Shown: piece by piece, positions 11,808 to 25,273 of the stretch
Position numbering within the stretch: the first letter of the stretch is position 1
How the letters are laid out: each line of letters begins with the position of its first letter
Assembly: GCA_009886115.1 (NCBI GenBank)
Contig: VFJJ01000197.1
Coordinates: forward strand, 1-40,177
Length of the DNA stretch: 40,177 nt
From: Actinomycetota bacterium
GTDB lineage: Bacteria; Actinomycetota; Acidimicrobiia; IMCC26256; VFJJ01
Direction: 5' to 3'
The notes under the pieces: model-generated
Database searches by the model: none
Seen by the model: only the letters and a program-made list of their open reading frames with translations
What the model was told of the DNA's origin: nothing
Translations under genes and position numbers: made by a program

Positions 11808-13744
11808 GGGGCCGCGTCCGCCACGCTCCCGACGGCGTTCTGCGCGGGGTAGAGGGAGTTCAGCGCCGGGTAGTAGCCAGCGCATGCCGCCACGGCTTGC
11901 GCGAAGGTCGGCGTGTCGAGCATCGAGCCGGTCGTCGTCTCGGCCACCGCAGCGTCGACCAGGCCGTCGTTTCCGAGTTGCGCCCGCATGCTGTCGACAA
12001 CGCAGAACCCCGCGTCGGCGTCGACCCCGAGGGTGATCACCGCGCCCAGCGCCTGCGCCCGGGCCATCTGGACGAGCCCGGCCGACCACCGCTCGGTCCT
12101 GGTGGTCTGCGAGTTCGTCGCCGCGCCGGTCGCCTCCAGCATCGCTGTCGTCGTCGTCGTCGATTGAACGGCCCCCGAGGGAGCGATCCCCGTCGTGGTC
12201 GCGGCTGACGGGGTGTCGATGGTCGCGGCCGAGCAGGTGTGCAACGAGATCGACGCGGGCTTCGAGACCACCGTGGCGTTCGGCAGACCCGCCGCCCAGC
12301 GCTCGAACACGTCGAGCACGACCCCAGGGGCCGTTGCCGCGTCGAGGGCGACCGTGAGATCGAGGCAGACCTGCTCGGAGGTGCGACTCACGAGATACCG
12401 ATCGTTGCGCCACTCGGCCGCGGCGGCGAGGCTGGGGTCGAAGTCGAGGCGTTCACCGAGGAGCACCAGCAGGTGCAACGCCCCGAGTCGGCCCTGGGCC
12501 ACCACGTCGAACCCGCTGGCCGGCGAAGGCGATTCGATGGACGGACGGGTGTTGGTCCGGCCCGGGGAGAGCAGCTCGATCTCGCCGGGCGCGGCAACGG
12601 CGAAGAGCTCGCCGACGGAGAGATCGTCACCTCCCCGGTCCCTGAGCTCCAAGGCCAGCCAACCGTCATGCGCCGTCGTGCCCAGGAGATACGACGCCGC
12701 GCCGAAGCCCTGCGTGTCCAGGAGCAGACGCCGGGTGGCCACCTCGTCGTGCTGCGCCGTGGCGTGTTCATCGCGCTCGACCCCGACCAGCTCGGCGACG
12801 TATCGATCGACGATCGCGCTGCGCGCCGACGCGATCCGCGCCGCCCAGCCCGTGACGGCCTCGAGCTCAGCGGCTTCCGGGGCGCTCACGTCGAGGTGCT
12901 GGGCCAGCAGCGCCACCGTGAGCTGGCCCACGAGCTCCGCGCGGACGTCGGTCCCGGCTCCCGTCGCCGAGATGTACACGACTCGCTCGCCGTTGTCGTA
13001 GGCCACCCGGCTGGCGACGACGGAAGCCAATGAGGCCGTCGGCGCGTCGTCGTGGACCCCCGCTGCCGCCCCGACCGAGCTCCACACGGCGCCCGACGCG
13101 TCGAGTGCTGCGACGAGCAGGTCGTTGTCGCGATGCGCGACGAACTCGGGATCGTCGAAGACCACGGTCACGGGTTCCCGGAACTCGAGCCCGACCTCGT
13201 TCTCGACGAAGGCGACGAGATCGGTGACGCGGGGGTCCCACCTGGGCTCCTCGGCCGATGTCGTCTCTCGACCGTCCGCTGACGGGCCGCCGTCGCGTCC
13301 CTGGGTGACCAAGAAGGCGCTGCCCGCACCGGCGGCGAGCGCCAGCACCGTCAGGATCTTCACGGCCGAGCGGGAAGCGCCGGAGCGCGCCGTGGACGAC
13401 GAGAGGAAGGCTGGCAGCGCGGCGTCGGTGCGGGCGGCGCCTGTCGCCCGTCCGTTCCGGTGCTTGCGGCCGCGCGCGGACTGCTCGGCGTCGGAGCTCC
13501 CACCATCGGCTCCGGTTTCGCCGCTCGGGTCGACGTCGGGTACGGGCTCGCCATCGCGTAGCGATGACGGGTGACCGGCAGCCGGGTGCTCGACCCGACA
13601 GTTCCAGCACACCCCCTCGGCCAGGTGGACGGCGGCACGACATCGGCGACACGCTGTCATGAGCGACGCTTGGCACTCGGGGCATTTGTTCTCGAGCAAC
13701 GGCGCCGACCCGCTGCAGCGGGGGCAGACCGCCTCGATCTTCAT
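11804..13744 (-). CDS. Zinc-ribbon membrane protein with degenerate metallopeptidase-like outer domain (paralogue 1)
   Basis: This 646-residue protein has the same architecture as its downstream neighbour: Cys pairs at identical positions (7/10, 21/24, 32/35, 46/49), a polar linker, a membrane span at about 128-147, and an outer domain beginning FVENEVGLEFREPVTVVF. The place of the HELTHALQDQH motif reads GQLTVALLAQHLDV (273-286): His, Glu and His are replaced by Gly273, Gln274 and Val277. The later EGDA-type motif is also lost here (ARSAIVDRYV). The segment RLGALHLLVLLGERLDF matches the family's C-terminal part. GGAGAG precedes the ATG at 13744. The 312-bp gap to the divergent multicopper oxidase contains nothing recognisable besides the motif at 13988. 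Confidence 0.85.
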   Translation of the reverse strand: MKIEAVCPRCSGSAPLLENKCPECQASLMTACRRCRAAVHLAEGVCWNCRVEHPAAGHPSSLRDGEPVPDVDPSGETGADGGSSDAEQSARGRKHRNGRATGAARTDAALPAFLSSSTARSGASRSAVKILTVLALAAGAGSAFLVTQGRDGGPSADGRETTSAEEPRWDPRVTDLVAFVENEVGLEFREPVTVVFDDPEFVAHRDNDLLVAALDASGAVWSSVGAAAGVHDDAPTASLASVVASRVAYDNGERVVYISATGAGTDVRAELVGQLTVALLAQHLDVSAPEAAELEAVTGWAARIASARSAIVDRYVAELVGVERDEHATAQHDEVATRRLLLDTQGFGAASYLLGTTAHDGWLALELRDRGGDDLSVGELFAVAAPGEIELLSPGRTNTRPSIESPSPASGFDVVAQGRLGALHLLVLLGERLDFDPSLAAAAEWRNDRYLVSRTSEQVCLDLTVALDAATAPGVVLDVFERWAAGLPNATVVSKPASISLHTCSAATIDTPSAATTTGIAPSGAVQSTTTTTAMLEATGAATNSQTTRTERWSAGLVQMARAQALGAVITLGVDADAGFCVVDSMRAQLGNDGLVDAAVAETTTGSMLDTPTFAQAVAACAGYYPALNSLYPAQNAVGSVADAAP

Positions 13745-13987
13745 TGCGCTCTCCCTGGCCGCACCCGTGATCGGTCCCGCCGCGACGAACCATGCCGCCT
13801 GGCGTGGACTGATCTCCTCCTCGGAGATTCGACCGGCTCAGGGCCTCGCTTGAGCAGTTCAGCTCGGGCGGGCCACCGGTCCGCACCTTCGCGTGAACGC
13901 GAGGAGGGTCCGAGGTTTGGGCAAAGACCCGAGATCGCTCCGGGGCCACTGCGCTTCGCGGCGTTTCGACCCGTATCGACGAATTGT

Positions 13988-14020
13988 CAAAAGGTTTTCA
14001 ACAGGTCGCCCTTCTACGAT
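13988..14020 (+). promoter_or_regulatory. Conserved motif upstream of the first multicopper oxidase (candidate promoter)
   Basis: CAAAAGG followed after 20 bases by TACGAT, with a TCAACAGGTC block between, recurs with the same spacing upstream of the second oxidase (15680-15712). TACGAT looks like a -10 box 36 bp before the start codon at 14057; no standard -35 is at 16-19 bp, so an activator-dependent or alternative-sigma promoter is possible. Confidence 0.5.
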
Positions 14021-14056
14021 CCCGGGACTGTTCGAACCGAACTCCAGGGGTGGGGA

Positions 14057-15637
14057 ATGGCGCTCACACGGCGCGAGATGTTGAAGTTGGGGATTGCCGG
14101 GTCGGCGGCGGTGGCGCTGCCGCTCCAGCGAGTGGTGAGCGGCGCTGTGGCCCAGACCCGGATCGCCGAGAGCAGCTTGCCGGCGCCGTTCACCGTCCCG
14201 TTCGCGGTCCCGCCGGTCATCACCCCGCACCGAACCGACGCCACCACCGACTACTACATGCTCACGCAGAAGCAGTCGACGGTTCAGATCCTCCCGGGCA
14301 TCAACACGCCCGTCTGGGGTTACAACGGCATCGTCCCCGGCCCGACGATCGACGTGCAGCAGGGTCGCCAGGTGCTCATCCGCCAGGTCAACAAGCTCCC
14401 GGACCGTCACCCCATCGCCGGGTACCAGCCCTGGACCTCGACGCACCTCCACGGCTCGCCGTCGTTGCCGCAGTTCGACGGCTACGCCAGCGACATCACC
14501 CGGCCGGGACAGTACAAGGATTATCGCTATTCCAACACCGAGAGTGCCCGTACGCTCTGGTACCACGATCACGGGGTGCACCACACGGCTGAGAACGCCT
14601 ACATGGGGCTGGCGGCGTTCTACCGGCTGCACGATCCCCTCGAGGTGTCGTTGCCGATCCCCAAGGGGAACTACGACATCCCGTTGATGATCCACGACGC
14701 CATGTTCGCCACCGACGGGCAACTCATCGGTGACGACCACGATCATTCGGGCATCATGGGCGACGTCATCCTCGTGAACGGCCGCCCGTGGCCCGTGATG
14801 CAGGTCGAGCAGCGCAAGTACCGGTTCAGGATCCTGGTCGGGAGCATGTCGCGCTCGTACCGGTTGAAGCTCGACAGCGGCCAGATGATGACGGTGATCG
14901 CCGGCGATGGCGGGTTCATGCCGGTACCGCAGCCTGTCAGTGTGCTGCGGACGGGCATGGCCGAGCGCTACGAGGTGATCATCGACTTCGCCAACATCCC
15001 GATCGGCCAGCGGGTCGTGATGCGCAACCTCCCTCGCAGCGACAGCGACGACAACAACATCTCCTACACCCACACCGACAAGGTCATGGCCTTCGATGTC
15101 GTTGCACCGTCGTCGAGCTCAGCGAACAACGAGATCCCGGCGGTGCTCGACCCGAACAACCCGGTCATGGCCCTCCAACCGGCCCAAGCCGTCGCCCGTC
15201 GAACCATGAAGCTCGACCGCTCCAAGGGCCAGTGGACGATCAACGGCACATCGTGGGCTGACGTGGTCGCCAGCGGATACAAGAAGGTGATGGCCAACCC
15301 CAAGCTGAACGACATCGAGATCTGGACGATCGAGAACGCGAGTGGCGGCTGGTTCCACCCGCTGCACATCCATCTCGTCGACTTCAAGATCCTCGACCGC
15401 AACGGCTTGCCCCCGCTGCCCCAGGAGCTGGGCCCCAAGGATGTTGTCTACGTCGGCGAGAACGAGACGGTACGGCTGATCATGCGCTTCGGCCCGCACC
15501 TCGGGAAGTACATGATCCACTGCCACAACATGGTCCATGAAGACCACGACATGATGACCCAGTTCGAGGTGGGCACCGGCGGACCCGACCCCATCCGGGC
15601 CGCTCTTCCCAAGTGGGGCTCGCCCCCTGCCCCATGA
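14057..15637 (+). CDS. Multicopper oxidase, Tat-exported (copy 1)
   Basis: This 526-residue protein has a twin-arginine signal (TRREMLKLGIAGSAAVAL), so it is folded with copper before or during export. All four copper motifs of a CotA-like laccase are present: HLH (130-132), HDH (170-172), HPLHIH (434-439) and HCHNMVHEDHDMM (488-500), giving the type-1 site (His434, Cys489, His494, Met499 or 500) and the trinuclear centre. It should oxidise phenols, metals or other donors and reduce oxygen to water; the donor cannot be deduced. The ATG at 14057 follows AGGGGTGGGGA. It is very similar to the third oxidase at 18720, indicating a local duplication. Confidence 0.95.
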   Translation: MALTRREMLKLGIAGSAAVALPLQRVVSGAVAQTRIAESSLPAPFTVPFAVPPVITPHRTDATTDYYMLTQKQSTVQILPGINTPVWGYNGIVPGPTIDVQQGRQVLIRQVNKLPDRHPIAGYQPWTSTHLHGSPSLPQFDGYASDITRPGQYKDYRYSNTESARTLWYHDHGVHHTAENAYMGLAAFYRLHDPLEVSLPIPKGNYDIPLMIHDAMFATDGQLIGDDHDHSGIMGDVILVNGRPWPVMQVEQRKYRFRILVGSMSRSYRLKLDSGQMMTVIAGDGGFMPVPQPVSVLRTGMAERYEVIIDFANIPIGQRVVMRNLPRSDSDDNNISYTHTDKVMAFDVVAPSSSSANNEIPAVLDPNNPVMALQPAQAVARRTMKLDRSKGQWTINGTSWADVVASGYKKVMANPKLNDIEIWTIENASGGWFHPLHIHLVDFKILDRNGLPPLPQELGPKDVVYVGENETVRLIMRFGPHLGKYMIHCHNMVHEDHDMMTQFEVGTGGPDPIRAALPKWGSPPAP

Positions 15638-15679
15638 GGTTTGGTCCCTCACCGCGCTTCGCCCGATTCGCGGGGATGC

Positions 15680-15712
15680 CAAAAGGCTGCTCAAAGGTCC
15701 CATTTGTACGTT
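15680..15712 (+). promoter_or_regulatory. Conserved motif upstream of the second multicopper oxidase (candidate promoter)
   Basis: CAAAAGG, then TCAAAGGTCC, then TACGTT, matches the motif at 13988-14020 with identical spacing between AAAAGG and TACG(A/T)T. GCGCTTCGC also occurs a short way upstream in both regions. It lies 89 bp before the start at 15802, in the 164-bp gap after the first oxidase. Confidence 0.5.
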
Positions 15713-15801
15713 CGCCTACGCAACGTTGGTGGGAGTCCCATCCGAGGGCCGGGTTCGCGCCCTGGACCATTCGAGATAGGTGACGAGCGAGGAGCGGTCA
15801 C

Positions 15802-18006
15802 ATGACTGACGAGCTCGAAGGCGACATCTTGGAATCCGAAAGTGAGGGCACGATTCCGCGCCGAGCCCTCCTGAAGCTCGGCGTGGCGGGGGCTGCGGCG
15901 CTCGCGCTCGGGAGTGCCGGGTCCCTGATCGTGCCGGACCTACGCCGTAGGGGCCTGTTGTCCGCCAACGGAGTGTTCGACGCGGCCTCGATCGCGTGGG
16001 CCGATACTCTGTACAAGGAGCTCTTCCCCACGAGCCCCCTGATCGTGTCGCCCTTCCAGGACGAGCTGCCCATTCCCAGGGCACTGGCGCCCACCCCGAT
16101 GTCGGAGTACAGCTCCTGGAAGACACCGCCGGGACCCGGAAACGGCCAGCAATCGGCATACGGCAACGACAGGCATCAGATCTGGCCGAGCACCGTTGGT
16201 TATCCCGACCCGATCGTGTACCAGATCAAGGTGCAGGTGAACACGCATGCGTTCACCACGTCTCAGGTACTCCCGATCGACTCGAAGGGGCTCCCGTCGA
16301 TCTCGTTCGACGCGACCGGCAAGAGATATCCCGCGGGGACGCGACGGGCGCTGCCACCCAGCACGATCTATGGATTCAATGGGACCTTCCCCGGCCCCAT
16401 GATCAACGCCGAGTACGGCAAGCCCGTGCTGCTCCGGTTCCAGAACGAGTTGGATGAGAACCCCCTCGACCTCGACCGCCAGGACTTCGGCTCGCCCGAC
16501 TGGTCATTCCTGACCCACCTCCACAACGGGCACACGGCTCCCGAGAGCGACGGCAACCCGCACTACGCCATGAACTACGGCCCACGGGATCGCGGGTACG
16601 CCCCCCAGATGTGGGTCGACAACCTCTATCTCAACTGGCCCGCGGGTGGCGATTCCCGCGAGAAGCAGAGCTTCTTCTGGATGCACGACCACACCATGGA
16701 CCACACTGGCGCCAACGTCTACAAGGGCATGGTTGGCCTGTACCCGATCTATGATCCCGCGCAGAACCTGGACGCGGGCGACGAGACAATGGGCTACCGG
16801 TTACCCGGCGTCCGAACGAACAACCCGGACGGGTCGTTCGACGTCGAGTACGACATCCCGCTGGCGATCTACGACTGCCGCCTCGACGACGGGGTCACCA
16901 AGCACCTGGACATCCACGACGGGATGGGCGAGTACCCCGAGGCGAAGAACCCGCGCACCCATCCGGAGTGGTGGGGCAAGACGTTCTACAAGCACTTCCC
17001 CAACCACGGCTTCGTGGGTGACATCTTCACGGTCAACGGGACGGCTTACCCGGTGCTGGAGGTCAAGCGGCGCAAGTACCGCTTCCGGTTCCTCGACGCG
17101 TCCGTCGCCCGTATTTACGAGTTCAAGCTGATGAGCTCGACACAGGGGCCGAAGACGGCCACGTCGCTCGGCTACACGGGAACCGAGCTCCAGGGTCAGT
17201 ACCGCATCCCCGACGCGCAGCAGTGCATGCAGTTCACCCAGATTGCCACTGACGGTGGCCTCATCCCGTTCCCGATAACACGCGACTCGTTCGAGCTCTG
17301 GCCCGCCAAACGCCGCGAGTTCATCGTCGATTTCACGAAATATCAGGATGGCACGCCGACCACGAAGGGCGACGTGATCTACCTGACCAACGTGATGAAG
17401 ATGCCCGACGGACGCATGTGGACGAACTCGTCGAGATCCCTTCCGGACCCGAACTACAAGATACCGGTCCTGAAGATCGTGATCGGCGACGACGCCCCAG
17501 ATGACAGCCAGATCCCCACCGCGCTTCGCCCCCTGCCGGATGTACCAGCGAACTGGCAATCGATGCTCGACAATCGCACGATCTTCGAGGTGAAGCGCGG
17601 CAGCCTGGGTGGTGAGATCGAGTGGCTGATCAACGGCAAGCCATTCGATCCGGCACAAGTGGCGACGAGCCTGAGGAATCCCGCAGGCAGGTCGCCGCTC
17701 GCACAGCAGCGGATGGGGAGCTACAACCTCTGGGAGCTGCGCAACGGTGGTGGCGGGTGGGTGCATCCATTCCACCTGCACATGGAGGAGCATCGCACGC
17801 TCATGCGCAACGGGAAGGTCGTGAAACCGGGTGACGCGGCGCACCCCGACGACATCTCCAAGGAGGATCTCGTGGCGTTGGATCCCGGTGAGTCGGTGAT
17901 CATCGGCCGATACTTCCGAGACTTCATCGGTCCCTATGTTGGCCATTGCCACAACCTCGCGCACGAGGACCACGCCATGATGTTCGGCTGGGAGATCGTG
18001 CCGTAG
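15802..18006 (+). CDS. Multicopper oxidase, Tat-exported, long form
   Basis: This 734-residue protein is longer than and clearly different from the two neighbouring oxidases. A Tat motif IPRRALLKLG (18-27) precedes a hydrophobic stretch. Copper motifs are HLH (239-241), HDH (295-297), HPFHLH (655-660) and HCHNLAHEDHAMM (715-727), a complete set. Extra length comes from an N-terminal segment of about 150 residues and an insertion around residues 430-470, in the manner of phenoxazinone-synthase or bilirubin-oxidase-like enzymes; the substrate is not predictable. GAGGAG lies upstream of the ATG. The following membrane protein starts within 40 bp, so they are probably co-transcribed. Confidence 0.94.
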   Translation: MTDELEGDILESESEGTIPRRALLKLGVAGAAALALGSAGSLIVPDLRRRGLLSANGVFDAASIAWADTLYKELFPTSPLIVSPFQDELPIPRALAPTPMSEYSSWKTPPGPGNGQQSAYGNDRHQIWPSTVGYPDPIVYQIKVQVNTHAFTTSQVLPIDSKGLPSISFDATGKRYPAGTRRALPPSTIYGFNGTFPGPMINAEYGKPVLLRFQNELDENPLDLDRQDFGSPDWSFLTHLHNGHTAPESDGNPHYAMNYGPRDRGYAPQMWVDNLYLNWPAGGDSREKQSFFWMHDHTMDHTGANVYKGMVGLYPIYDPAQNLDAGDETMGYRLPGVRTNNPDGSFDVEYDIPLAIYDCRLDDGVTKHLDIHDGMGEYPEAKNPRTHPEWWGKTFYKHFPNHGFVGDIFTVNGTAYPVLEVKRRKYRFRFLDASVARIYEFKLMSSTQGPKTATSLGYTGTELQGQYRIPDAQQCMQFTQIATDGGLIPFPITRDSFELWPAKRREFIVDFTKYQDGTPTTKGDVIYLTNVMKMPDGRMWTNSSRSLPDPNYKIPVLKIVIGDDAPDDSQIPTALRPLPDVPANWQSMLDNRTIFEVKRGSLGGEIEWLINGKPFDPAQVATSLRNPAGRSPLAQQRMGSYNLWELRNGGGGWVHPFHLHMEEHRTLMRNGKVVKPGDAAHPDDISKEDLVALDPGESVIIGRYFRDFIGPYVGHCHNLAHEDHAMMFGWEIVP

Positions 18007-18042
18007 ATGTTGGTTCATTTCCAGACGAGGAGTTCCAAGATA

Positions 18043-18723
18043 ATGAACCGGAGCTCACCACGGCTCTCATGGGCGACGATCGCAATCCTGGCTTTCGTGA
18101 TCTCCTTTGGCGACGGCTTCATCGCCACGTCCCTACACGGTGCGATCGGTGCTATCGAGCGCACCGGTTCGCCGTTTGCGTACTGGCTTCGTAGCTCGAC
18201 GTTGATGCTCCCGCTGTACGTCCTAGCGGTGACGGTTGCCCTCGTGGCCGCACGTCGCTGGGTCGGGCAGAGCCGGCGAACGCCGGTCAAGCTGGCCGTC
18301 GCCGCGCTACTCGTCATCGGGATCACGAGCGCCGTCGGGGTCGCCGAGGTGGCAGCCAGCTCGACGTACGACTACCACCTCCAGTCACGTGAGCTGGAAC
18401 GCGTGCATTCGGTGCATTCGGTGCATTCACATCCGAGCAGCACCCACCCCGCAACGCTCGATCTGGCGTCGGGTTCAACATGTTCTGCGCTCTGTGAGGC
18501 GAAGCGCTCCACGCTCGCCGTGCATGTGCGGGCCGTGAAGTACGCCGCCGTCGTGCTGTTGATCACGAACCTCGTGCTGGTCGCATTCGTGCTGGTGTTC
18601 CGCGGCGATCGCTTGTGGCTGCGGCACGACCGGATACGGGGTGCGCATCGGGGACGACACCGCCACCGTGCCGCTGGCGGTGTCGGGCATCTCGCCGGAA
18701 CCCGAACCTCGATCGCCTCATGA
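18043..18723 (+). CDS. Four-span membrane protein with His-rich loop
   Basis: This 226-residue protein (from ATG 18043, with GAGGAG ten bases upstream; ATG 18007 directly after the oxidase stop is an alternative) has about four membrane spans: AILAFVISFGDGFIA, TLMLPLYVLAVTVALVA, LAVAALLVIGITSAVG and AAVVLLITNLVLVAFV. Between spans three and four is a roughly 60-residue loop with VHSVHSVHSHP and two Cys, encoded partly by a 9-bp triplicated repeat. Such a loop could bind copper or another metal. The last 40 residues are unusually Arg/His-rich and may reflect a frame disturbance. The TGA overlaps the ATG of the third oxidase (ATGA), indicating translational coupling. The family was not recognised. 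Confidence 0.65.
   Translation: MNRSSPRLSWATIAILAFVISFGDGFIATSLHGAIGAIERTGSPFAYWLRSSTLMLPLYVLAVTVALVAARRWVGQSRRTPVKLAVAALLVIGITSAVGVAEVAASSTYDYHLQSRELERVHSVHSVHSHPSSTHPATLDLASGSTCSALCEAKRSTLAVHVRAVKYAAVVLLITNLVLVAFVLVFRGDRLWLRHDRIRGAHRGRHRHRAAGGVGHLAGTRTSIAS
18403..18429 (+). repeat. 9-bp triplication encoding Val-His-Ser x3
   Basis: GTGCATTCG, GTGCATTCG, GTGCATTCA follow directly on one another within the membrane-protein gene and encode VHSVHSVHS in the loop. Confidence 0.9.
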
Positions 18724-20288
18724 CACTGACTCGGCGCGAGATGCTCAAGTTGGGGCTGGCGGGGTCGGCGGCGATCGCGTTGCCCGTCCGGCGGATGGTT
18801 CGCGCCGACGACGGGCCCGGTCGGATTTCCGAGAGCCGCCTCCCTGAGCCTTTCACGGTGCCCTTCGCGGCGCTGCAGGTACTGGCACCGTCTCGTGTCG
18901 ACGCGACGACCGACTACTACTCGATCACCCAGCGCCCGGCAACGGCCCAGATCATCCCCGGGTTCGACACGCCGGTGTGGGGGTACAACGGCCTCGTACC
19001 CGGGCCCACGATCGAGGCTCAGCAGGGTCGACGGGTCGTTGTGCGCATGGCCAACGCCTTACCGGCGACGCATCCCACTCTGGGCTACCTCCCGTCGACG
19101 TCGACCCATCTTCACGGCGCGCCGTCCCGTCCCCAGTACGACGGGTACGCCAACGACCTGACGCTCCCCGGGCAGTGGAAGGACTACGTCTACAACGACG
19201 TGCCCAACGGCCGCACGATCTGGTACCACGATCACGCCGTCCACCACACGGCCCCGAACGTGTACATGGGCCTGGCCGGCATGTACCTCGTGCGAGACCC
19301 GCTCGAGCAGGGGCTGGCGATCCCCCAGGGCCGCTATGACGTGCCCCTGATGATCCAGGACGCGCTCTTCGCCAGCGACGGCAGCCTCCTCTTCGACGAC
19401 GATGACGAGTCGGGCCTGATGGGCGACGTCATCCTCGTCAACGGTCGGCCGTGGCCGGTGATGCGGGTGGAGCGGCGCAAGTACCGGTTCCGGATCCTGA
19501 TCGCCAGCTTGTCGCGCTCGTACCGGCTGGCCCTCGACACGGGTGATCCGCTCACCGTGATCGCCACCGACGGCGGCTTGATGGCGGCCCCTCAGCCCGT
19601 CACCAGACTCCCCGCCAGCACGGCGGAGCGTTACGAGGTGATCATCGACTTCGCCAAGTATCCGATCGGGCGACGAGTCGTGCTGCGCAACCTGAGCAAC
19701 AAGAACAACGTCGACTATCCCGATACCGACAAGGTCATGGCCTTCGACGTCGTCGATGAGCCCTCGAGCACGGAGGGTAACTCGATCCCCTCGGTGCTCG
19801 ACCCGAACAACCCCGTGATGGCCCTCGATCCGGCCCTGGCGGTGGCCCGGCGATCGATGAAGCTCGATCGCGGTGGCGGCCAGTGGACGATCAGTGATGT
19901 GATCTGGGACGACATCGTGGCCAGCAGGTTCAGGAAGGTGTTCGCCAACCCCCAGCTGAACGACGTCGAGATCTGGACGCTCCAGAATTCGAGCGGCGGT
20001 TGGTTCCACCCGTTGCACCTCCACCTCGTCGACTTCAAGATCCTCGACCGCAACGGCAAGCCTCCGCGGGCTCACGAACGGGGCCCGAAGGACACCGTGT
20101 ATCTCGGCGAGAACGAGACGATCCGCGTAATCGCCCGTTTCGGCCCCCACCGCGGTCGATACCTGGTGCACTGCCACAACGTCGTGCACGAAGACCACGA
20201 CATGATGACCCAATACGAGGTCGGAACCGGCGGAGACGACCCCATCACGAGCGCGCCCGCAGTGTGGGGCACCCCTCCCGCTCCCTGA
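18720..20288 (+). CDS. Multicopper oxidase, Tat-exported (copy 2 of the short form)
   Basis: This 522-residue protein is a close paralogue of the oxidase at 14057; most motifs are identical, including the Tat signal TRREMLKLGLAGSAA. Copper motifs are HLH (130-132), HDH (170-172), HPLHLH (430-435) and HCHNVVHEDHDMM (484-496). Differences cluster in the loop before residue 230, where copy 1 has DDHDHSG and this copy has DDDDESG, which could alter metal or substrate access. The start overlaps the stop of the preceding membrane-protein gene by four bases, and there is no Shine-Dalgarno, so translation is probably coupled. No copy of the upstream motif found before the first two oxidases was seen. 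Confidence 0.93.
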   Translation: MTLTRREMLKLGLAGSAAIALPVRRMVRADDGPGRISESRLPEPFTVPFAALQVLAPSRVDATTDYYSITQRPATAQIIPGFDTPVWGYNGLVPGPTIEAQQGRRVVVRMANALPATHPTLGYLPSTSTHLHGAPSRPQYDGYANDLTLPGQWKDYVYNDVPNGRTIWYHDHAVHHTAPNVYMGLAGMYLVRDPLEQGLAIPQGRYDVPLMIQDALFASDGSLLFDDDDESGLMGDVILVNGRPWPVMRVERRKYRFRILIASLSRSYRLALDTGDPLTVIATDGGLMAAPQPVTRLPASTAERYEVIIDFAKYPIGRRVVLRNLSNKNNVDYPDTDKVMAFDVVDEPSSTEGNSIPSVLDPNNPVMALDPALAVARRSMKLDRGGGQWTISDVIWDDIVASRFRKVFANPQLNDVEIWTLQNSSGGWFHPLHLHLVDFKILDRNGKPPRAHERGPKDTVYLGENETIRVIARFGPHRGRYLVHCHNVVHEDHDMMTQYEVGTGGDDPITSAPAVWGTPPAP

Positions 20289-22512: not shown

Positions 22513-23799
22513 ATGAGCGCCCGTCTGGTCTACGACCACTTCTACTCGTACGAGGAGCTCGGGAGCTTCCTGCACGACCTGGCCGCCGAGTTCCCCGGGT
22601 TGCTGAGCGTCGAGAGCATCGGGAGGTCGTTCCAGGGACGTGAGCTGTGGCTGGCGACGGTCACCAACTCGGCGACCGCTCCACACTCCGAGAAGCCGGC
22701 ACTGTGGCTGGAGGCCAACATCCATGCCATCGAGCTGACGGGTTCCCATGCCGCGCTCCAACTGATCGAGCGCCTCGTGACCACACATGGCCACGACGAG
22801 CGGGTGACGAGGGTCCTCGACACCCGCTGCTTCTACGTGCTCCCCCGCCTCAATCCCGACGGCGCCGAACACGTGATGCGCCCAGGTGCTGCGTACGTCC
22901 GCTCGTCGGTGCGCCCCTACCCGCGGCTCGACCAGCAGGACGGCTTGGTGGAGGGTGACGTCGACGGTGACGGGCGGGTCCTCACCATGCGGGTTCCCGA
23001 TCCTAACGGGGCCTGGATGGCCCATCCCGACGAGCCCCGGCTCCTCGTGCTACGCGACCCCGAGGACGACGGCGCCGCCGGCCCGTGCTTCCGGCTCCTG
23101 CGCGAAGGCACGATCGAGGGCTACGACGGAACGCTCGTCCCCATCGCCCCCGACCTGTTCGGGCTCGATCTCAACCGCAACTACCCCATGGAGTGGCGCC
23201 CCGAGGGCGATCAGACGGGTGCCGGTCCGTATCCGACGTCGGAACCCGAGATCGCGGCCGAGGTCGCGGCCATCACCGAGCGGCGCAACATCTCGGCGTT
23301 CGTCGCGTACCACACCCACGGTGGGCTCTATCTCCGTCCGTACAGCGCGCACGCCGACGACACCATGCCCACCTCCGATCTCCGGACCTACACCAAGATC
23401 GGACGAAAGGCGACCGAGCTCACCGGATACCCGGTGCTGGCGGTGTTCCATGACTTCCTCTATCACCCCAAGCAGGTGGAGACGGGGGCGTCCGACGACT
23501 GGGCCTACGACCATCTCGGCGTCTTCGCCTGGACGGTCGAGTTCTGGAGCCCCAAACGCCGGGCCGGCATCGCCGACGACAAGCCCATCGACTGGTTTCG
23601 TGAGCACCCGGTCGCCGACGATCTCGCGATCATGCGGTGGAACGACGAAGCCTTGGGAACAGAGGGTTTCGTCGACTGGTACCCGGTCGAGCATCCGCAG
23701 CTCGGACCGGTGGAGCTCGGCGGCTTCCCCTGCTCCAGCCGTGGAGCAACCCGCCGTTCTCGATGCTGGAGGCCGAGATCGCCCCACACGCCGACATGA
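22513..23799 (+). CDS. M14 family zinc carboxypeptidase, N-terminal part (frameshifted)
   Basis: This frame encodes the catalytic domain of an M14 metallocarboxypeptidase, which removes C-terminal residues using one zinc. Ligands His71 and Glu74 lie in NIHAIELTG, the third His is in AYHTHGG (267/269), FGLDLNRNYP holds the substrate-binding Asn-Arg, and the catalytic Glu343 is in TVEFWSP. All key residues are present. The match to the family runs to ELGGF (about residue 405); after that the frame turns to Arg-rich nonsense ending at 23799, while the expected continuation is in another frame (WSNPPFSMLEAEIAPHAD). One missing C in the CCCC at 23727-23730 accounts for it. Either an assembly/sequencing indel or a true disruption outside the catalytic core. 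Confidence 0.85.
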   Translation: MSARLVYDHFYSYEELGSFLHDLAAEFPGLLSVESIGRSFQGRELWLATVTNSATAPHSEKPALWLEANIHAIELTGSHAALQLIERLVTTHGHDERVTRVLDTRCFYVLPRLNPDGAEHVMRPGAAYVRSSVRPYPRLDQQDGLVEGDVDGDGRVLTMRVPDPNGAWMAHPDEPRLLVLRDPEDDGAAGPCFRLLREGTIEGYDGTLVPIAPDLFGLDLNRNYPMEWRPEGDQTGAGPYPTSEPEIAAEVAAITERRNISAFVAYHTHGGLYLRPYSAHADDTMPTSDLRTYTKIGRKATELTGYPVLAVFHDFLYHPKQVETGASDDWAYDHLGVFAWTVEFWSPKRRAGIADDKPIDWFREHPVADDLAIMRWNDEALGTEGFVDWYPVEHPQLGPVELGGFPCSSRGATRRSRCWRPRSPHTPT

Positions 23800-24209
23800 T
23801 GATCCACCACCTGTTGATCTCGCCCCTGCTGCGGCAGCGTTCGGTGGAGGTCTCGGCGGTCGGCCCCGGGGTGTGGAAGGTGCGGGTGGTCGTCGAGAAC
23901 GCCGGTTGGCTGCCCACCAAGGTCACAGAGAAGGCCGTGGAACGCAAGGCGGTACGACCGATCGAGGCCGAGATCGTCGTGCCCGACGGTGCGGTGCTGG
24001 TGGGCGGCGATCGGAGGATCGAGCTGGGCCAGCTCTCGGGCCGGTCGTCGAAGACCACGCCCATGGACGCCTTCTCGGGGACCCTCGATCCCACGTCGGA
24101 TCGGGCCAAGGTCGAGTGGGTCGTGCGGGCTGCCGAGGGCACCACGGTCTCGGTCACGGTGCGCCACGACCGCGGCGGCGTCGTGCGAGCCGACATCGTC
24201 CTGGCCTGA
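23763..24209 (+). CDS. M14 carboxypeptidase, C-terminal part in shifted frame
   Basis: This frame continues the carboxypeptidase at 22513. From about 23730 it reads LLQPWSNPPFSMLEAEIAPHAD and then a beta-rich C-terminal domain (VWKVRVVVENAGWLPTKV, VEWVVRAAEGTTVSVTVRHD). It has no start signal of its own at ATG 23763, so the two frames were most likely one gene of about 565 residues. The domain resembles beta-sandwich modules that follow catalytic domains of some M14 peptidases and probably helps binding or stability. If the indel is an artefact, 22513-24209 is one intact gene. Confidence 0.7.
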   Translation: MLEAEIAPHADMMIHHLLISPLLRQRSVEVSAVGPGVWKVRVVVENAGWLPTKVTEKAVERKAVRPIEAEIVVPDGAVLVGGDRRIELGQLSGRSSKTTPMDAFSGTLDPTSDRAKVEWVVRAAEGTTVSVTVRHDRGGVVRADIVLA

Positions 24210-24220
24210 CCGCGGCGGTC

Positions 24221-24370
24221 GGCGGCATCTTCACGCAGTTCGGCGGACCGCTCGGCCACACCGCAGTCATGGCACGCGAGTTCGCCATACCCGCCGTGGT
24301 CGGCGCCGGTGTGCTTCCGCTGCACCTGAACGGGCTCCTCGGGACCCTCACGGCTCCGCCGCCCCGCTGA
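24221..24370 (+). pseudogene. Remnant of a PEP-utilising enzyme mobile (phosphohistidine) domain
   Basis: The 180-bp gap after the M14 gene still reads, in one frame, as about 49 residues: FTQFGGPLGHTAVMAREFA followed by IPAVVGAGVL and a stop at 24368. This is the conserved phosphohistidine motif GGxxSHxAxxAREFGIPAVVG of PEP synthase, pyruvate phosphate dikinase and rifampicin phosphotransferase-like proteins, with the phospho-accepting His retained. No start codon, N-terminal ATP-grasp part or rest of the enzyme is present, so it is a broken fragment left by deletion or recombination. The sequence after GVL is not conserved. Confidence 0.7.
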
Positions 24371-24390
24371 CGGCTCGGCCGCCGGCCAGG

Positions 24391-25260
24391 TCAGGTCAGG
24401 AGGGCCTCGGGGGTGAGGGCGACGATACCGGTCGCGCCCAAGGCCCGGAGATCGCCGAGGCGTTGCCACAGGTCTCTCTGGGTCACGACGAAGTGGACGG
24501 CCACGAGATCGTCGCGGGCGGCGAGGGGGAGCACGGTCGGCGAAGCCAGCCCGGGGAACACCTGGCTCAGATCGCCGACCCGGTCGCGGGGCACGTGCAG
24601 CATCACGTACCGGTGCCGGCGGGCGTCGAGCACGGCTTCGAGGCGGAGCACGAGGTCGTCGAGCACGGCCACGACCTCGCCGACCGCGAGATCACTCGAT
24701 GGGCGGCGCACGAACTCGGCCTGGCAGGCGCCGATGACCTCGAGCGCCCGCAGCCCATTGGTGACGAGGCTGGTGCCGGTCTCGCGCAGGTCGACGATGG
24801 CGTCGGCCAGACCGGCCGCGCACACCCCTTCCAGCGACCCGCCCATGGCGACGACGGTCACGGTGACGCCTCGATCTGCGAAGAAGCGCTCGGTGGTGGC
24901 CGGCAGGTGGGTGGCCACGACGCAGCCGCGGAGATCGTCGACGTTGGCGCGTCCGTCGTCGGCTCGCGAAGCGACGACGAGGTCGGTCTTGGCGAAACCC
25001 AGCGCCAGACTCGGGTAGGTCTCGATGCGGTGCTCGCCCACGATGTCGGTGGCGAGGAACGCCGCATCGAGAGCGCCGGCCGCGAGCGCGGCCGCGGCGT
25101 CGCGGGGCCGCATCTCGATGCACTCCAACCCGTCGACGTTGGCGCGCGCGCCCGCGCCGTGGAACATCGACGTGGAGTATCCGGCAGCCTTGAGGAGCGC
25201 CAGGCAGTCGTCGCGCAGGCGTCCCTTCGACGGGATGGCGACCCGTGCCCCGACGGTCAT
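24391..25260 (-). CDS. hisG: ATP phosphoribosyltransferase, long form
   Basis: HisG condenses ATP and PRPP, the committed step of histidine synthesis. The 289-residue length and a C-terminal ACT-like domain (from about residue 210: YVMLHVPRDRVGDLSQVFPG) mark the long, histidine-feedback-inhibited hexameric type, which does not need HisZ. Typical motifs are AIPSKGRLRDD at the N-terminus, DAAFLATDIVGEH, and the PRPP-binding DLRETGTSLVTNGL. The start ATG 25260 lies 13 bp after the hisE stop, so the two genes form an operon. A GTG-free, clean start is preferred over the long open extension upstream, which overlaps hisE. Confidence 0.95.
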   Translation of the reverse strand: MTVGARVAIPSKGRLRDDCLALLKAAGYSTSMFHGAGARANVDGLECIEMRPRDAAAALAAGALDAAFLATDIVGEHRIETYPSLALGFAKTDLVVASRADDGRANVDDLRGCVVATHLPATTERFFADRGVTVTVVAMGGSLEGVCAAGLADAIVDLRETGTSLVTNGLRALEVIGACQAEFVRRPSSDLAVGEVVAVLDDLVLRLEAVLDARRHRYVMLHVPRDRVGDLSQVFPGLASPTVLPLAARDDLVAVHFVVTQRDLWQRLGDLRALGATGIVALTPEALLT

Positions 25261-25273
25261 CGTGCTCCTCGGC

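Follow-up and report, generated by a model that had tools for sequence, protein, structure and literature searches.

The M14-hisG spacer and its surroundings

The window, by which we mean the whole stretch of DNA analysed here (40,177 bases), is an entire contig (G000:C148) of an assembly of 5.4 Mb in 224 contigs, with a completeness of 95.6% and a contamination estimate of 3.04%. Within it an M14 zinc carboxypeptidase-like gene on the plus strand and hisG on the minus strand face each other across a spacer of 181 bases, which extends from the M14 stop codon (24207-24209) to the hisG stop codon (24391-24393). This spacer holds a fragment related to PEP-utilising enzymes (Table 1). The alpha/beta hydrolase gene of the window is apparently complete (Abhydrolase_1 profile positions 2-244 of 245) and hisE looks complete likewise. 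The G+C content is even across the fragment, and the local DNA has about 70% G+C.

Table 1. Features of the M14-hisG locus (coordinates of the window).
Feature	Position	Strand	Characteristics
M14 zinc carboxypeptidase-like gene	22513..24209	+	Two frames (22513-23799, then the frame of 23637-24209); PF00246, E 5.7e-47
Putative deletion junction	24206..24212	.	Overlaps the M14 stop codon TGA, 24207-24209
Probable 3' remnant of a PEP-utilising enzyme gene	24206..24370	+	PF00391 phosphohistidine loop, short in-frame gap, domain end motif, stop codon
First ATG in the remnant frame after M14	24269..24271	+	Behind the histidine codon, 24257-24259
hisG	24391..25263	-	Convergent with the remnant, apparently intact; PF01634 and PF08029; 62% identity to the hisG of G012 over 6-289 of 290

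The part of the PEP-utilising domain that is present

Nucleotides 24212-24370 translate in plus frame 2 to AAVGGIFTQFGGPLGHTAVMAREFAIPAVVGAGVLPLHLNGLLGTLTAPPPR, followed by a stop codon. The initial annotation had recognised here a phosphohistidine motif of PEP-utilising enzymes in a short ORF, and our comparisons bear this out. The sequence GGPLGHTAVMAREFAIPAVVG is present in that frame, in an ORF with its stop codon at 24368-24370, and the translation of 24212-24367 matches PF00391 with E 2.2e-10 and 40.4 bits (gathering cut-off 23.1) at profile positions 22-56 of 72. A PF00391 search of the whole genome placed the match at 24206-24316, with profile positions 20-55 and 39.9 bits. With a home-made profile built from 18 related domains the window reached 36.3 bits (E 1.9e-9) against at most 13.7 bits in 30 codon-shuffled windows, so this match is not due to chance. 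The best NCBIfam models for the fragment, PRK05849.1 and PRK08296.1-5, scored 24 bits versus cut-offs of 501 and 578. The extent given in the initial annotation, 24221-24370, was right at its end, but the homology starts further upstream, at 24206-24215, where it touches the M14 stop codon.

The predicted phosphorylated histidine lies in GGPLGHTA and aligns with the histidine conserved in 18 homologous domains. The fragment shares with PF00391 enzymes the loop GGxxxHxAxxARExxxPAVxG and an end motif like VDGxxGTVT, and differs from them in lacking about 20 first domain positions, about 7-8 internal and about 500 upstream residues, and any usual start codon before the histidine. The complete domain of 72 positions is thus absent, and its end motif was recovered separately from the profile matches. 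After a gap of about 7-8 residues past the loop (7 residues versus paralogue L002, 8 columns in the multiple alignment) the frame continues as LHLNGLLGTLT, which aligns with the domain end motif (for example IRVDGTAGTVT in L002). Only 5 of 20,000 shuffles reached the score of this 18-residue tail, as did about 40 of the 9,208 stop-free peptides of the window; the profile used in this test leans on the recognition pattern, because it was drawn from only those 15 of the 18 domains whose end motif that pattern recognised. The stop codon at 24368-24370 stands near the usual end of PEP-utilising proteins with a C-terminal domain. The initial annotation held that nothing else of the enzyme was left, which is true upstream of the loop, where this frame crosses M14 coding sequence that is itself translated in another frame, but overlooks the preserved end motif. 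By its sequence the fragment reads as the last 60 or so codons of a PEP-utilising enzyme, without a short internal stretch and some 500 upstream codons.

How well has the fragment been preserved? Its core has a median identity of 0.47 to the 18 other domains, while the intact rows have 0.45-0.55; its best identity, 0.56, equals the lowest of the best identities among the intact rows (0.56-0.78). There is no internal stop codon, and GC3 is 0.865, just under the 0.872-0.917 of five neighbouring stretches. The preserved core, open frame and GC3 fit a recent loss and fit a living ORF as well. The loss of the PEP-utilising gene may have been fairly recent.

The domains compared depend on the pattern by which they were cut. 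The home-made profile contains 18 domains from 19 loci, with no row for L033. A second alignment represents 12 of 15 loci, with no rows for L107, L108 and L117; L106 and L110 had spurious additional rows in it, which were ignored. The same pattern missed several loci in another homologue listing.

The junction and the M14 gene

The C-terminal part of the M14 protein can be aligned with its relatives up to their residue 188-190 of 190 wherever the contig reaches that far (L012 is cut short), and the relatives inspected end at this place too. The PEP-utiliser homology sets in at 24206 in the genome search or at 24212 with the home-made profile, that is, at the M14 stop codon or two bases past it. 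A normal M14 end directly followed by PEP-utiliser homology is the pattern expected from a deletion that began at the M14 terminus and reached into the gene behind it. No repeat that could mediate such a deletion was seen across the junction, which says little, since a deletion of this kind leaves one copy only.

The M14 gene itself has one frameshift at about 23725-23741, beside a short run of C. In our reading of the alignment, the linker at this place is one base shorter than the L012 protein implies. Past the frameshift the reading frame continues without interruption over about 470 bases to the normal end, and the relatives read in one frame there. The N-terminal part is 48-62% identical to these relatives and the C-terminal part 37-54% (in L012, cut short, only 19 residues could be compared). 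The continued conservation of the downstream frame indicates that the frameshift is either recent or a sequencing error, and it could indeed be the latter. Strong M14 matches occur in 13 other genomes, and in 12 of these the gene is in one piece without stops, one of the 12 being cut by a contig end. The initial annotation described the area 23.7-24.4 kb as decaying or rearranged. For M14 this holds as far as the single frameshift; the rest of its frame is unbroken, however, and the hydrolase, hisG and hisE look intact. The frameshift and the PEP-utiliser fragment need not be connected and may be regarded as two separate small lesions.

An M14 homologue in another genome of the order (L022 / L027, G057:C1:709656-710857) is also split over two frames, elsewhere in the protein (at about query residues 224-241).

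Relatives of the locus and of the fragment

Besides its own genome, M14 has matches at E <= 1e-80 in 13 of the 61 genomes searched and weak ones in 3 more, with a top identity of 62%. We compared 31 M14 neighbourhoods, consisting of 12 loci from 11 of the 13 whole genomes and 19 loci from a separate contig set; the two sets may overlap, some neighbourhoods are shortened by contig ends, and all belong to distant relatives, whose M14 does not exceed 62% identity. For G020 and G052 short loci only were compared, with the fragment alone. In none of these 31 distant neighbourhoods was the PEP-utiliser domain found with the home-made profile, whose best E was 0.23 versus 1.9e-9 for the window. Of 11 further window features compared, including hisG, hisE and the hydrolase, none had a match at E <= 1e-4 in the 12 whole-genome M14 loci. 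Of 57 other genomes, 9 contain a hisG match at E <= 1e-20; in the one neighbourhood examined, that of the nearest hisG (G012), a convergent ORF of unknown kind is present and no match to the fragment was found.

At E <= 1e-6 the fragment itself has relatives in one genome of the order (out of 57 others), in 3 of 395 in the phylum sample and in 21 of 394 in the class sample, which includes the one from the order. They are 47-63% identical over 31-43 residues. Seventeen of the 21 class-level relatives sit in open frames of 559-625 codons, and the best (G537, 60% over 40 residues) in one of 565 codons. A plasmid source was considered and rejected: 61 plasmid records matched at E <= 0.1, each over less than 80% of the query, and the best of the 10 listed had 60% identity over 30 residues.

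Elsewhere in the assembly there are 7 other PF00391 matches (contigs C42, C80, C108, C158, C60 and C23). PPDK_N (PF01326) has one match, in the C42 gene with its own PF00391 domain, so most of these genes are without a recognisable nucleotide-binding domain of that type. A search of the rest of the genome for the missing part of the enzyme, proposed in the initial annotation, yielded no orphan N-terminal half: the N-terminal profile A1 (13 rows, 442 positions) gave 5 matches in the assembly (C23, C60, C80 twice and C108), and each of the genes concerned keeps a PF00391 domain. The missing half may lie in the unassembled part of the genome, or the N-terminal part may have been of a type other than A1. 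The fragment is not a recent copy of a paralogue either. The best protein identity to the paralogues is 49-56% over 29-38 residues and the best same-position DNA match 73% over 62 bases (L006). No second DNA copy of the region was found among the 40 of 334 candidates scored, the next match having 41 bits.

Origin of the fragment

We consider it highly probable that the fragment, about 160 bases long, is the tail of a gene for a PEP-utilising enzyme that lost its main part by deletion, and that it makes no working small protein. The initial annotation had proposed a past deletion or recombination, and a deletion remnant is indeed the best explanation of a piece that has the C-terminal part only, joins M14 at its stop codon and has no usual start. 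The lack of the domain in the 31 distant M14 neighbourhoods, and of an orphan N-terminal half among the profile A1 matches, agrees with this. A PEP-utilising enzyme gene with a C-terminal phosphohistidine domain would once have stood between M14 and hisG, in the same direction as the fragment, and its product, judged by the nearest relatives, would have had about 550-620 residues. The deletion would have begun where M14 ends and reached as far as the phosphohistidine loop, taking out about 500 codons. A further small loss, in frame and of about 7-8 codons, would have occurred ahead of the domain end. The remaining bases would then be a non-functional spacer between two convergent genes.

Could the locus owe its present form to an error of assembly or sequencing, at the M14 stop/PEP junction or at the M14 frameshift? 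The assembly is fragmented and has the contamination estimate given above, and the frameshift occurs nearby in a C-rich stretch of a gene that is unbroken in nearly all the other genomes with strong matches. The fragment, however, lies well inside the contig (at 24.2 of 40.2 kb), with even G+C across it, without a second copy among the candidates scored and with an apparently intact hisG immediately behind it, which makes such an artefact unlikely. We regard as more doubtful still that the fragment encodes a genuine small protein (about 33-53 residues) with a free phosphohistidine loop, despite its well-preserved core, its GC3 and the lack of stops. This frame is open from 22877 onward, through most of M14, in DNA of such high G+C content, so its openness gives no support for a gene. 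Among the in-frame start codons listed over 23951-24367 there is no ATG, GTG or TTG between GTG 24116, inside M14, and the histidine, and CTG 24206 is the only candidate; a product started from the first ATG would lack the histidine. The beginning of the domain and part of the stretch after the loop are also missing, and the domain does not accompany M14 in any of the 31 neighbourhoods. No sigma-70-like promoter was detected in 23900-24700, which is weak evidence because other promoter types are not covered by this search; no terminator was found in the same interval and no RNA family in 23700-24900. That a living protein of about 53 residues starts from the CTG overlapping the M14 stop codon and serves as a detached phosphohistidine carrier for one of the PEP-utilising paralogues of this genome seems to us extremely improbable.

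Hardly more credible is the idea that frameshifting lets M14 translation run on into the fragment as a C-terminal extension. The homology does begin exactly at the M14 end and on the same strand, but the M14 N-terminal part, the M14 C-terminal part and the fragment are in three frames (22513, 23637 and 24212 modulo 3 are 1, 0 and 2), which would require two shifts, and the relatives stop at the same M14 position with no such domain nearby.

The deletion remnant, therefore our preferred explanation, has the features by which bacterial pseudogene remnants are recognised: homology to a known protein, a truncated gene and no usual start. In a functional PEP-utilising enzyme (PEP synthase, PPDK or Rph-like) the remaining parts would be in the same gene, and here they are not. 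Such sequences are not rare: Liu et al. 2004 (PMC522871) reported about 7,000 pseudogene candidates in 64 prokaryotic genomes. Like the spacer pseudogenes found there by homology, our fragment combines protein homology with the lack of a complete gene and a position in a spacer; it differs in that its gene was lost by truncation and the remainder has no stop codons or frameshifts. The fragment is an ordinary gene remnant. For annotation this means that the stretch is not to be entered as a gene. It has little significance otherwise, except in showing that a motif enclosed in an open frame does not count as evidence of a gene where the DNA has about 70% G+C. The M14 frameshift should be verified in the reads before the locus is counted as degraded.

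Further upstream the window (13571-20288) contains three successive multicopper oxidase genes, at 13571-15637, 15802-18006 and 18615-20288. In the middle one Cu-oxidase_3 was matched only at profile positions 15-48.
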